64,000 nucleotides of DNA from an uncultured Fibrobacter sp. (GTDB taxonomy: Bacteria > Fibrobacterota > Fibrobacteria > Fibrobacterales > Fibrobacteraceae), in NCBI RefSeq assembly GCF_947166265.1, contig NZ_CAMVDO010000002.1, forward strand, positions 1 to 64,000, in the 5' to 3' direction. The notes under the pieces are model-generated. The model saw only the letters and a program-made list of their open reading frames with translations. It searched no databases and was not told the DNA's origin. Numbering within the stretch: the stretch's first letter is position 1; every line of letters starts with the position of its first letter. The position numbers and the translations under genes are program-made. Below, piece by piece: positions 1-4,096 of the stretch.

Positions 1-1206
1 TTTTGCTCCTCTTTTCGCCAAAAATCGCACCCCTCGCGGGTGCGTGAATTGAAACAGTCATTTTTTTTGCTCCTCTTTTCGCCAAAAATCGCACCCCTCG
101 CGGGTGCGTGAATTGAAACTCGGTGCCGTGAATCTTGCGGTACATGTAGCTATCGCACCCCTCGCGGGTGCGTGAATTGAAACTGATGTGGGGTCTTTCG
201 TGATAGCCGAAACTCATCGCACCCCTCGCGGGTGCGTGAATTGAAACAACGCATACTAATAGATAAAAGGACACACAACATCGCACCCCTCGCGGGTGCG
301 TGAATTGAAACTGTCGGTAAAAAGAAAATGAGCGAATTAAAGGGATCGCACCCCTCGCGGGTGCGTGAATTGAAACCGACCAGGGCTATGAACTCGCCGC
401 AAACGAGGATCGCACCCCTCGCGGGTGCGTGAATTGAAACAAAAATGGGGCGAACCTTGACGGCCTTTACAAATCGCACCCCTCGCGGGTGCGTGAATTG
501 AAACAAGATCGAGCTTGACGAAGGCCGAGACCTCTAATCGCACCCCTCGCGGGTGCGTGAATTGAAACTTGTATGTCCACAAATCACGTTTCTGGAGCAG
601 ATCGCACCCCTCGCGGGTGCGTGAATTGAAACACGTCGATAGCCTTGAGGAATGCTGCCTTGAGATCGCACCCCTCGCGGGTGCGTGAATTGAAACCAGT
701 TGTAGGCACGGCGTGCGGCAGCACAGGAATCGCACCCCTCGCGGGTGCGTGAATTGAAACAGCATAAACGGAAATAACCTTTTCAAAATTGGGATCGCAC
801 CCCTCGCGGGTGCGTGAATTGAAACTCAACGATTGGCAAAGTGGTGACGAAGTGACCATCGCACCCCTCGCGGGTGCGTGAATTGAAACAGGCATAACGA
901 CAGACAGGATCATCATAAACATATCGCACCCCTCGCGGGTGCGTGAATTGAAACTCCCACATCGACGCGGAATCGGCGTGGTAAAGATCGCACCCCTCGC
1001 GGGTGCGTGAATTGAAACTCTTTGCTGCTGACAAAGATGACGAACAAACTAATCGCACCCCTCGCGGGTGCGTGAATTGAAACACCCGTGCAATGCTGAT
1101 CTCGATGATAATCAAATCGCACCCCTCGCGGGTGCGTGAATTGAAACGGTGTTACGCCTGAAGGATACGTCCACCTGTTATCGCACCCCTCGCGGGTGCG
1201 TGAATT
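1..1206 (+). CRISPR. CRISPR array, type I-C-like repeats, leader-distal part
   Basis: Nineteen copies of a 32-bp repeat (starting ATCGCACCCC, ending GTGAATTGAAAC) begin at 24, 88, 152, 216, 280, 345, 409, 473, 537, 601, 665, 729, 794, 858, 923, 987, 1052, 1116 and 1180. Spacers are 32-33 bp. Each repeat holds a 7-bp stem, CGCACCC/GGGTGCG. The repeat resembles type I-C repeats (GTCGC...GTGGATTGAAAC type), though spacers are slightly shorter than the usual 34-36 bp. The last repeat diverges after TGAATT at 1206, which marks the leader-distal end; crRNAs are therefore read on the plus strand and the leader and cas genes should lie beyond the left edge. The visible 23 bases of the first spacer (1-23) equal the last 23 bases of the next spacer (65-87). 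Open frames crossing the array are an artefact of the repeats. Confidence 0.97.
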
Positions 1207-1446
1207 ATTTTCATGCGCCACTAAAGAAAGATAATGATGGACGGCTTTGCCGTCCGTGGCTGCATTCGGTCATATTTGCATACTATCACTTCGCAAATTT
1301 TATCCTGGACCATTTCCAGAACTCGCAATGAAACGCGAGGCGAGAGCAGTAGAAGCATTTGCAGGCTCTTTTGCCAAGCCGACGCAATCATTCACTCTGC
1401 GCAATGACATACGAAAAGGGGATTCTGACACACAAACATCTCCCTA
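1207..1446. other. CRISPR trailer flank without a convincing gene
   Basis: About 240 bp follow the degenerate last repeat. The only clear structure is a hairpin at 1239-1255 (GGACGGC, loop TTT, GCCGTCC), with no T-run after it. Short open frames here lack a ribosome binding site and any recognisable sequence. Confidence 0.6.
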
Positions 1447-1492
1447 TTGACAAACAAATTTTAATTATATATATTAAATTCCGTTAATACGG
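1447..1492 (+). promoter_or_regulatory. Sigma-70-type promoter with palindromes, upstream of the antitoxin-like gene
   Basis: TTGACA (1447-1452), a 17-bp spacer and TATATT (1470-1475) form a near-consensus promoter 24 bp before the ATG at 1500. A palindrome CCGTTAATACGG lies at 1481-1492, between the -10 box and the start codon, and the AT-rich -10 region itself has TTTAAT...ATTAAA symmetry. AbiEi-type antitoxins are known to repress their own promoters through inverted repeats, so self-repression is a reasonable inference. GGAG at 1491-1494 serves as ribosome binding site and overlaps the palindrome. Confidence 0.75.
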
Positions 1493-1499
1493 AGTCAAC

Positions 1500-2120
1500 A
1501 TGCTTTTAGAGTTCTTGAAATCAAAATTTGGACCGGGAAAGCCCATTTTTACGGAAGATGCCGAACTACTCGGACTTTCGGCAGGGAATCTACGTCAACA
1601 ATTCAAGAAACTTGTTGATTCCGGTGAACTTTTCCGTTATGAACCTGGAGTCTATTTTCTGCCGGACCACAAACACGAATATTACCCGATTTCGTCAAAT
1701 ATGGTTGCTGAATACAAGTACATTACCAATGGCGATGAAATCTACGGCTATTATTCGGGCTACACCTTCGCAAATCAACTTGGATTGTGCCTGCAGGTGC
1801 CGTATAAAGCCGAAATTGTCACAAATAATACAACAGCCATCGCACGCGAAGTTAAAGTAGGAAACATTCCGTTTTACATACGCCGTGCCAAGGTCGCCGT
1901 CACCAAAGAAAACCGCAACGTTCTTCAACTCCTAGATTTGCTAAAGGATGTAGAAGAATACACCGACTACTGCTGTGAAGAGGAAGCTCCCGACATCATT
2001 CGCAGGCATATTCTGCGTAACAAAATTCTCCGCGCCGACGTAGATAAATACATCGAAAGCTTTCCCCTAAAAACATACAAGTCTATCTACGATTTGAAGC
2101 TTTACGATGTACTTGCATAA
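1500..2120 (+). CDS. DUF6088 / AbiEi-like antitoxin-type protein
   Basis: The 206-residue product starts with a winged-helix-like segment (about residues 1-60, containing LLGLSAGNLRQQFKKLVDSG and a wing, RYEPGVYFL). A core follows with the YGYYSGYTFANQLGL motif that I associate with DUF6088, a family grouped with type IV AbiEi antitoxins. The usual partner, an AbiEii nucleotidyltransferase, is absent. Instead the gene ends against a RhuM/PLD-like gene, and the longest reading of that frame overlaps this one by 14 nt, so the two are probably one operon behind the promoter at 1447. Likely role: DNA-binding antitoxin and autorepressor. The family call rests on remembered motifs. Location beside a CRISPR array fits a defence neighbourhood. 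Confidence 0.75.
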   Translation: MLLEFLKSKFGPGKPIFTEDAELLGLSAGNLRQQFKKLVDSGELFRYEPGVYFLPDHKHEYYPISSNMVAEYKYITNGDEIYGYYSGYTFANQLGLCLQVPYKAEIVTNNTTAIAREVKVGNIPFYIRRAKVAVTKENRNVLQLLDLLKDVEEYTDYCCEEEAPDIIRRHILRNKILRADVDKYIESFPLKTYKSIYDLKLYDVLA

Positions 2121-2133
2121 AAAAACAACAGAA

Positions 2134-3084
2134 ATGACAAACCCAGACTTGCTCGAAAGCGACAACAAGGGCGAGATCGTGCTTTATCAACCGGAAGGAG
2201 AAGTTCGATTGGAAGTGCGTGTTGAAAACGACACCGTGTGGCTTTCGGCAAATCAAATGGCGCGCCTTTTCGACAGAGATGAAAAAACACTTAGAAAGCA
2301 TATCAACAATGTATTTTTAGAGGAAGTTGAAAAAGAAAACAACACGCATTTTTTGCGTGTTGATGGAGTTAAACAACCTGTAGCTTTTTACAGCCTAGAT
2401 GTTATCATTTCCGTTGGTTATCGAGTTAAATCTGCAAATGGCATAAAATTCCGTCGCTGGGCAAACCAAGTTCTAAAGGACTACATGCTCAAGGGTTACG
2501 TAGTGAACCAGCGAATAATTGAAACAGGGATGCAGATTGCTAATCAGTTTCAAGAACAGCGGCAATTAATCGAAAATCAGGGTGCAGAAATTGTAGAATT
2601 AAAAAAATCGACAGAAAAGCGACTTTCGACCATTGAAAAACACATTGATTTCTTCGTTAGGGCCGCCCAAACTCCCACAGGAGGCATCCTTGCGACGGGA
2701 ACCCGTTTTGACGGACTTGTATTGATCGCTGATTTAGTGAAATCTGCAAAGCGCTCAGTGGTGTTTATTGATCCGTTTGCGACTATCGAAATTTTGAAGT
2801 TTGCAGCAATTCGAGCAAAAGGAGTAAACGCAGTTATCTATTCCGCCCATATTACTCCTGAATTTAAAGCAGCCGTCACCTTGCATAATAAGCAATATCC
2901 AGGCTTAGATTTAAAAACGATGCGCACTATTCACGATCGATTCTTGCTTGTAGACGATACCGTTTACCACTTTGGGGCGTCATTCAAAGATATGGGCAAT
3001 GAAATGACGGCGTTCAGCGTATTGAACTTTGTTACGCCCAAAGAAGTTATCGTCAAAATTCAGGAGAGTATGAAGGGAAGGTAA
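2134..3084 (+). CDS. RhuM family protein with phospholipase-D-like C-terminal domain
   Basis: Numbered from an upstream in-frame ATG at 2107, residues about 23-135 match the RhuM/virulence-protein domain (GEIVLYQPEGEVRLEVRVE, VWLSANQMARLFDRDEKTLRKHI, FRRWANQVLKDYMLKGYVVN). A helical linker, probably coiled coil, spans 140-185. The C-terminal part (about 195-325) resembles a PLD-like nuclease fold: SVVFIDPFA, then IHDRFLLVDD at 275-284, an HxK(x)4D motif with Arg in place of Lys, then GASFKDMGNEMTAF. I chose the ATG at 2134 because RhuM proteins usually begin 8-12 residues before GEI; neither start has a good ribosome binding site. Paired with the upstream antitoxin-like gene, it may be the effector of a toxin-antitoxin or defence module, which is inference. 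A small TAAGCC/GGCTTA hairpin overlaps the stop. Confidence 0.8.
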   Translation: MTNPDLLESDNKGEIVLYQPEGEVRLEVRVENDTVWLSANQMARLFDRDEKTLRKHINNVFLEEVEKENNTHFLRVDGVKQPVAFYSLDVIISVGYRVKSANGIKFRRWANQVLKDYMLKGYVVNQRIIETGMQIANQFQEQRQLIENQGAEIVELKKSTEKRLSTIEKHIDFFVRAAQTPTGGILATGTRFDGLVLIADLVKSAKRSVVFIDPFATIEILKFAAIRAKGVNAVIYSAHITPEFKAAVTLHNKQYPGLDLKTMRTIHDRFLLVDDTVYHFGASFKDMGNEMTAFSVLNFVTPKEVIVKIQESMKGR

Positions 3085-3119: not shown

Positions 3120-4010
3120 CTACTTTTCCACAACAATCAGTTCCGCGGCACCTTGGCCCGGAAGCGGCTTGAAGATTTTCACGTTCGTCTGGGTGGCAGG
3201 GCCACCGAAGGCCTTCATTTCACACACGAACAGGTAATTCGTGCCAGCCACCACCTGCGTCGCGACACTCAGCGGCTTGAGTCCCAGGTAAGCGTAGTCC
3301 TTGGTCGCTTCGGCAAACACGGCGGAATCTTCTGCGGCAAGCGGGCGCTGTTCCGAGAACGCCCCCGTAAGAGCTTCTTCGGTCTTGCCGGTTGCAAGGT
3401 CCGCAAAGAATCCTTCGACTTCCTTCGTGGCAACCTCGGCGCCATTTTCAGCCGTAATTCGCTTGTTCGAAATTCCATAGGCGAGCGTCACGTTCGCGTT
3501 CGGTTCGAGCGTCTTGAGTTCTTCGGCAGACACCTTGCGGCCACCGCTGCCGTAGGTGCAGAACGGCACCACCACCTTTCCGCCCAGGTCGTTGGAATCG
3601 AGGAAGGTGTAGATCGGCGGGGCGAATGTTCCGAACATAATCGGGTAGCCCAGATAAACCGTATCGTACTTGGCAAGTTCCGGTTTCGCATTTTCAAGGG
3701 CAGGCCACTGCTTGCTTTCGCGCTGAGCCATTACCGCGGCAATCGTACTGTCGTAGGTAGAAGGGTAAGCCGTCACCAGCTTGAGTTCCACGGCATCGGC
3801 GTTCTTCGCCTTCGCAAAAATTTCCGCGAGTTTCTTGGTCGCACCGTTCTGCGAATAGTACACCACCACCGACTTGGGTGCCGGAGCAGCCACTTCGGCG
3901 GTTTCGGTTTTAGGTGCGGGCTTAGATTCCTGCTCGTTGCAAGCCGTAAGCATTGCAGACAAGCCAAACGCCGACACTGCGGCCAAAGTCAATTTGAAAT
4001 TGCGAAACAT
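3120..4010 (-). CDS. Flavodoxin-like lipoprotein
   Basis: The protein has an N-terminal signal ending in the lipobox LTAC, a short Pro/Ala/Glu-rich linker and a flavodoxin-like domain (VVVYYSQNGATKKLAEIF as the FMN phosphate loop, YDTVYLGYPIMFGTFAPPIYTFLD, FCTYGSGG). About 90 C-terminal residues after it are unassigned. The expected role is a membrane-anchored FMN-binding electron-transfer protein, probably facing the periplasm. A longer frame begins at 4022, but that ATG lies inside GGAGGTGATG, an almost perfect Shine-Dalgarno sequence, so the real start is the ATG at 4010 (five bases after GGAGG), possibly 4013. It lies downstream of cysK on the same strand, with a terminator between them. 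Confidence 0.8.
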   Translation of the reverse strand: MFRNFKLTLAAVSAFGLSAMLTACNEQESKPAPKTETAEVAAPAPKSVVVYYSQNGATKKLAEIFAKAKNADAVELKLVTAYPSTYDSTIAAVMAQRESKQWPALENAKPELAKYDTVYLGYPIMFGTFAPPIYTFLDSNDLGGKVVVPFCTYGSGGRKVSAEELKTLEPNANVTLAYGISNKRITAENGAEVATKEVEGFFADLATGKTEEALTGAFSEQRPLAAEDSAVFAEATKDYAYLGLKPLSVATQVVAGTNYLFVCEMKAFGGPATQTNVKIFKPLPGQGAAELIVVEK

Positions 4011-4096
4011 CATCACCTCCATTCTGATAAGTTTATTCCTAATTTAGCAACAACGCCACCTCTTCGCAAGTACGCTCCTACAAACATTTCCCCTAC

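Follow-up and report, generated by a model that had tools for sequence, protein, structure and literature searches.

The AbiE operon is a type IV toxin-antitoxin (TA) system, a type in which antitoxin and toxin proteins do not touch during neutralisation. It encodes the antitoxin AbiEi and the nucleotidyltransferase AbiEii, and AbiEi is known to repress its own operon via inverted repeats (PMC3985639). TA loci can also degrade in such a way that only the antitoxin is kept, and orphan antitoxins of this kind are common in Klebsiella (PMC7192599). A further group of relevance is that of PADLOC's phage defence candidates (PDCs), mostly without experimental validation, among which PDC-S05 has candidate status (PMC12988326). 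The locus described here lies near the beginning of a 64,000-nucleotide stretch of an uncultured, rumen-type Fibrobacter genome (the window) and resembles each of these in part. It shares with AbiE a DUF6088 protein of AbiEi fold, a candidate inverted-repeat operator and a short overlap with the downstream gene; however, the AbiEii nucleotidyltransferase is gone, with four of its codons left before a RhuM gene takes over. The RhuM protein matches PDC-S05 over its full length, including a PLD-like C-terminus, and is encoded by a solo gene in other genomes, but while solo copies usually have a promoter and hairpin leader of their own, this one lies behind an AbiE promoter and carries an N-terminal MYLH. 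As with the orphan antitoxins of degraded TA loci in Klebsiella (PMC7192599), the toxin has gone, the antitoxin has been kept and an unrelated gene sits in the toxin position, although here the breakpoint falls within the first toxin codons, with an in-frame fusion of the incoming gene. The locus is best explained as an AbiE type IV TA operon without its toxin, with a solo defence-candidate RhuM-PLD gene in the toxin's place. Taken as a whole, this account is reasonably probable; the replacement of AbiEii by RhuM, taken alone, is very likely indeed, and control of RhuM by DUF6088 is held to be less likely than the replacement.

The antitoxin gene (positions 1500 to 2120, forward strand) encodes 206 residues, with a winged helix at the N-terminus followed by an AbiEi-like C-terminal domain. 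Its Pfam match to PF19570, at 25.9 bits, is barely over the cutoff of 25; the PADLOC AbiEi profile PDLC02236 covers 206 of 206 residues with an E-value of 3e-71. A sequence search against the PDB returned no meaningful match for the protein, and the top structural match of its AlphaFold model (mean pLDDT 91) is the crystal structure of AbiEi from S. agalactiae (6y8q, E 3.5e-5), followed by the AbiEi homologue Rv2827c. The AbiEi profile and the nearest fold thus uphold the assignment as an AbiEi-type antitoxin made in an earlier sequence-only reading of this DNA, and upon domain search both genes keep their names, DUF6088 through PF19570 and AbiEi, RhuM through PF13310 and PDC-S05. The named genomes nearest by DUF6088 belong to Fibrobacter and are for the most part metagenome assemblies from rumen or gut. 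Pairwise dN/dS of the gene ranges from 0.02 to 0.08 with or without AbiEii; judged by these ratios, DUF6088, orphans included, is kept under strong purifying selection.

Upstream of the gene lies a sigma-70-type promoter, TTGACA-17-TATATT (1447 to 1475, forward strand; 11/12 match), which is the best of six sites where 4.1 are expected by chance. Its -10 is overlapped by a candidate operator on the same strand (1459 to 1488), composed of the palindrome TTTTAATTATATATATTAAA (1459-1478) and a GTTAAT half-site, to which binding is predicted. Every one of the 17 aligned DUF6088 loci has the promoter and the AT-rich palindrome, with ATTAAA and GTTAAT invariant throughout whatever gene lies downstream, and a chance origin is dismissed because of this recurrence. 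The strong promoter with a palindrome that had been noted at first is therefore real, and alignment assigns it to the AbiE cassette. Since repression of the operon by AbiEi via inverted repeats is documented (PMC3985639), autoregulation by DUF6088 at the 1447-1475 promoter is expected by analogy.

The extent of the cassette can be read from DNA similarity. Homology with AbiE cassettes that lie at unrelated places in relatives spans positions 1442 to 2131 (forward strand), with a sharp onset at 1442-1447 and a stop at 2118-2136 depending on the relative, while the part similar to solo RhuM loci lies between about 2150 and about 3088. The RhuM-PLD open reading frame, of PDC-S05 type (2107 to 3084, forward strand; 325 residues), overlaps that of DUF6088 by 14 nt and is RhuM-like only from about 2119. 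Its first four codons (2107 to 2118, forward strand; ATGTACTTGCAT) are a relic of abiEii whose start codon overlaps the antitoxin stop: they encode MYLH, the residues with which AbiEii begins in relatives; there its overlapping ATG (GATGTACTTGCATAA) is the same start codon as that of the RhuM frame here. The residues that follow, KKTTEMTNPDLLESDNKGEIV, resemble MTKKTEMSIPEPVGGDNKGEIV at the start of a solo RhuM gene (L037). An AbiEii-type MYLH joined in frame to RhuM implies that the toxin of an AbiE operon was lost and its slot taken by a RhuM gene. As the alignments show, promoter/operator and DUF6088 correspond to the 5' half of the AbiE cassette, which in other loci runs on into abiEii, the breakpoint falls at codon 4-5 of abiEii with RhuM continuing in frame, and the junction is unique among the genomes searched. 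No AbiEii remnant was found 3' of the RhuM stop, and no AbiEii was detected downstream in the window or, in a search of limited power at E 0.01, in the source genome. At the exact site, 29 relatives share the downstream lipoprotein gene (3120-4022), but none of them shows AbiE, RhuM or CRISPR repeats within 1.5 kb, and they are hence uninformative about its ancestral state.

The structure of the junction suggests that a single deletion or recombination fused the two loci and deleted abiEii along with RhuM's own leader and start codon. As a consequence of this one joining event, the DUF6088 promoter would now drive transcription of RhuM, whose translation would begin at the former abiEii start in coupling with the antitoxin stop, and DUF6088 would repress the promoter at 1447-1475 in the manner of AbiEi. 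RhuM most likely works on its own, like the copies at other locations: its Bro/RhuM-like N-terminal domain may bind DNA or a phage component, and its PLD-like C-terminus may act on nucleic acid, with dimerisation presumably needed for the active site. DUF6088 would not be a dedicated RhuM antitoxin, and the orphan could have been retained as promoter control or as protection against incoming AbiEii. Against this account, the in-frame junction, of which there is one example, might have been selected for a joint action of the two products. With regard to the origin of such chimeras, the toxin would be lost first, and a selected antitoxin with its promoter would leave a transcribed slot for other genes.

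The main rival to the replacement account with DUF6088 control is a neutral scar, in which a chance deletion put RhuM beside an orphan antitoxin, DUF6088 exerts no control and the arrangement is functionless. This is rather unlikely, and it is best weighed against the other loci from which the toxin has vanished. Orphan DUF6088 genes after AbiEii loss are indeed common, as are the orphan antitoxins of Klebsiella (PMC7192599): among 26 Firmicutes DUF6088 loci, AbiEii is intact in about half and reduced to remnants or nothing in the rest, with an orphan DUF6088 kept beside decayed AbiEii remnants at L074, L078, L080, L082, L083, L085, L091 and L096. Besides the source genome, three Fibrobacter loci are without AbiEii. 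The first (L013), whose DUF6088 is nearest at the DNA level (92%), carries a gene for a HipA N-terminal domain that begins at the antitoxin stop; this lone frame (L013:1127-1498, minus strand; PF13657, E 3.5e-16) starts on the stop codon of the orphan DUF6088, and no HipA kinase part was found beside it. The slot of the second (L014) holds a RelB antitoxin gene with its own promoter-like sequence and then a small open reading frame that looks like the toxin of the RelB pair, while in the third (L015) only the AbiEii start and a 34-residue C-terminal remnant are left. Thus, in Fibrobacter a TA-type or RhuM gene comes next in 3/4 AbiEii-less versus 0/13 intact loci (Fisher p 0.006, from few and non-independent loci); in Firmicutes, 3/12 loci without AbiEii are followed by TA or Fic genes and 2/12 intact ones by a second AbiE unit (p 1.0). 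Over all loci, TA-type genes occupy 6/16 vacated versus 2/25 intact positions (p 0.04, again with non-independent loci). The enrichment of TA genes in vacated slots is only suggestive, because it is strong in Fibrobacter yet absent in Firmicutes alone and because the loci are not independent, and its weakness fits the neutral scar. On the other hand, the fusion is in frame near both start codons and the AbiE promoter and operator are intact, which speaks against a purely accidental arrangement.

A more far-reaching idea is that the promoter-antitoxin half of AbiE works as a landing slot, with DUF6088 retained and RhuM-PLD, a HipA N-terminal domain or a RelB-led pair captured at the abiEii start under DUF6088 control, so that successive effectors are re-partnered. 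This generalisation is doubtful. If such re-partnering were functional, effectors that have escaped recognition could be traced through orphan AbiEi/DUF6088 genes. What keeps the locus interesting is that an antitoxin has been retained while its toxin slot admits unrelated genes.

The sequence-only reading had instead proposed a distinct TA or anti-phage module, and its explanation in terms of a cognate pair, in which DUF6088 neutralises a toxic RhuM-PLD nuclease, is very unlikely. In its favour are the operonic arrangement with the 14-nt overlap, the intact frames of both genes, the strong and conserved promoter, the in-frame junction and the listing of RhuM-PLD among the PADLOC defence candidates. 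Against it, the pair occurs in one genome only. Among 151 genomes from this group and related ones, close DUF6088 relatives are present in 18 and RhuM homologues in 73, the latter as solo genes dispersed across the genus. Among 17 Fibrobacteraceae DUF6088 loci with readable downstream sequence, 13 have an intact AbiEii directly after the antitoxin, identified by both Pfam (PF08843, E 1e-24 to 1e-26) and PADLOC (E about 1e-77), in agreement with the premise that an AbiEi-type antitoxin normally pairs with AbiEii; RhuM adjoins DUF6088 in one of the 17, that of the source genome. A GTDB scan of 84,980 species genomes gave 42 DUF6088 loci from other genomes, in Fibrobacter and Firmicutes, none of which has RhuM within 4 kb. 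The partner of DUF6088 in relatives is thus AbiEii, and solo RhuM genes occur there in many contexts, with a DUF6088 neighbour in none of the loci examined. A search for published work on RhuM with TA systems or DUF6088 found nothing on the pair. The pair is thus not conserved, an outcome that the sequence-only reading had itself named as refuting. A distinct two-gene DUF6088-RhuM module is not supported by these comparisons; having turned up a single time, the pairing is a one-off scar and not a new defence system, a misreading that the arrangement makes tempting and that the present analysis corrects. As to an assembly chimera of two unrelated contigs joined at about 2119, the lack of the junction in any second genome and the predominance of metagenome assemblies among the other named DUF6088 genomes are outweighed by the in-frame junction and the coherent flanks on both sides, so that it is extremely improbable, and a collapsed repeat is unlikely because this RhuM copy is just 73% identical to the nearest paralogue in the genome, a solo gene on contig C3.

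The neighbourhood contains in addition the trailer end of a type I-C CRISPR array (24 to 1206, forward strand), with 18 exact 32-nt repeats, the last repeat being truncated. The window opens contig C2 of a genome assembled into 89 contigs (3.77 Mb in total), and C2 begins inside the array. Another contig of this genome, C55, carries a complete type I-C operon (cas3-cas5-csd1-cas7-cas4-cas1-cas2; C55:3039-11485) and the array start; as both contigs break inside the array, they probably join through it. The adjacency reported earlier is accurate, as 294 nt separate the array end (about 1206) from the DUF6088 start, but its value as a hint of a module is lost: among relatives, no searched locus with DUF6088 or RhuM contains repeats of the I-C type. 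The adjacency is therefore incidental, and the array is not part of the DUF6088/RhuM unit.

The RhuM protein itself matches PF13310 at 72 bits and the PADLOC PDC-S05 profile PDLC04879 with an E-value of 9.7e-106, its residues 20-317 of 325 aligning to profile positions 3-283 of 285. Its PLD-like C-terminal domain (2674 to 3066, forward strand; residues about 190-320) includes the motif H276xR278x4D283x6G290 (2932-2976, forward strand), which begins as H276-D-R278-FLLV-D283; HxRx4Dx6GxS is invariant in 20 relatives. Foldseek matches of the domain include TrmB, NucT, FAM83, Tdp1 and Zucchini (E 1e-7 to 1e-3), and VIA-align gives Z scores of 12.2 for TrmB, 12.0 for 4urj, 11.4 for NucT and 10.5 for Nuc, with rmsd 3.2-4.0 over 124-133 aligned residues and nearly all rows being PLD-fold proteins. 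The model has a low mean pLDDT of 58, which rises to about 80 across much of the PLD part. According to this model, the C-terminus folds as a PLD domain (Z about 12), and the HxR(x)4D motif noted in the sequence-only reading does lie within it. The single-HKD PLD nucleases NucT and Nuc are similar in fold, with Z scores of 11.4 and 10.5 across 132 residues, and in the HxRx4Dx6G motif, but the lysine of the classical HKD motif (HxKx4D) is replaced by arginine in RhuM. Some of the best matches, FAM83 and TrmB, are PLD folds that serve as binding domains, so that nuclease activity of the RhuM domain is no more than possible.

The RhuM-plus-PLD architecture is already known, as the PDC-S05 models in PADLOC span both domains full-length, and RhuM-PLD genes are best treated as stand-alone units and not named by their neighbours. 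A sequence search of the PDB with the protein gave no meaningful match, and a RhuM profile scan of viral contigs confirmed no relative. The PLD-like C-terminal domain is common to RhuM and ORF6N-domain proteins, both filed as PDC-S05 by PADLOC (L178, L180, L190), in which the PLD half is retained and the N-terminal half exchanged. Genes of the source genome at C2:204571, C2:210548 and C17:14540 encode a C-terminal domain related to the PLD-like one of RhuM.

Solo RhuM genes are also preceded by recurrent leaders. One of them is shared in Fibrobacter by L034:1401-1500 and about 30 other loci (L149-L218), and consists of a -10 TTGTATATT, an invariant CACC-AGAAAR-GGTG hairpin and a terminator-like hairpin with a T-run just before the ribosome site; three stem pairs vary on both sides, and the loci scanned gave no Rfam match at gathering scores. 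It sits before unrelated genes, namely RhuM-PLD and ORF6N-PLD (both PDC-S05), YhcG (PDC-S02) and RelB, and resembles a shared attenuator that has spread together with single-gene defence or TA units. A role as an RNA antitoxin specific to RhuM was considered for the hairpin leader of solo RhuM genes and dismissed, since ORF6N-PLD, YhcG and RelB genes have the same leaders in front of them. More leader families with a similar promoter-hairpin-start layout are found 5' of solo RhuM (L043, L002, L031, L038), including family A, with a AAGTCGTATTTC..GAAATACGACTT stem, family B, with a AAGTCGGCC..GGCCGGCTT stem, and two others. Family B also lies before ORF6N-PLD genes and before small RelE-like open reading frames without a Pfam match.
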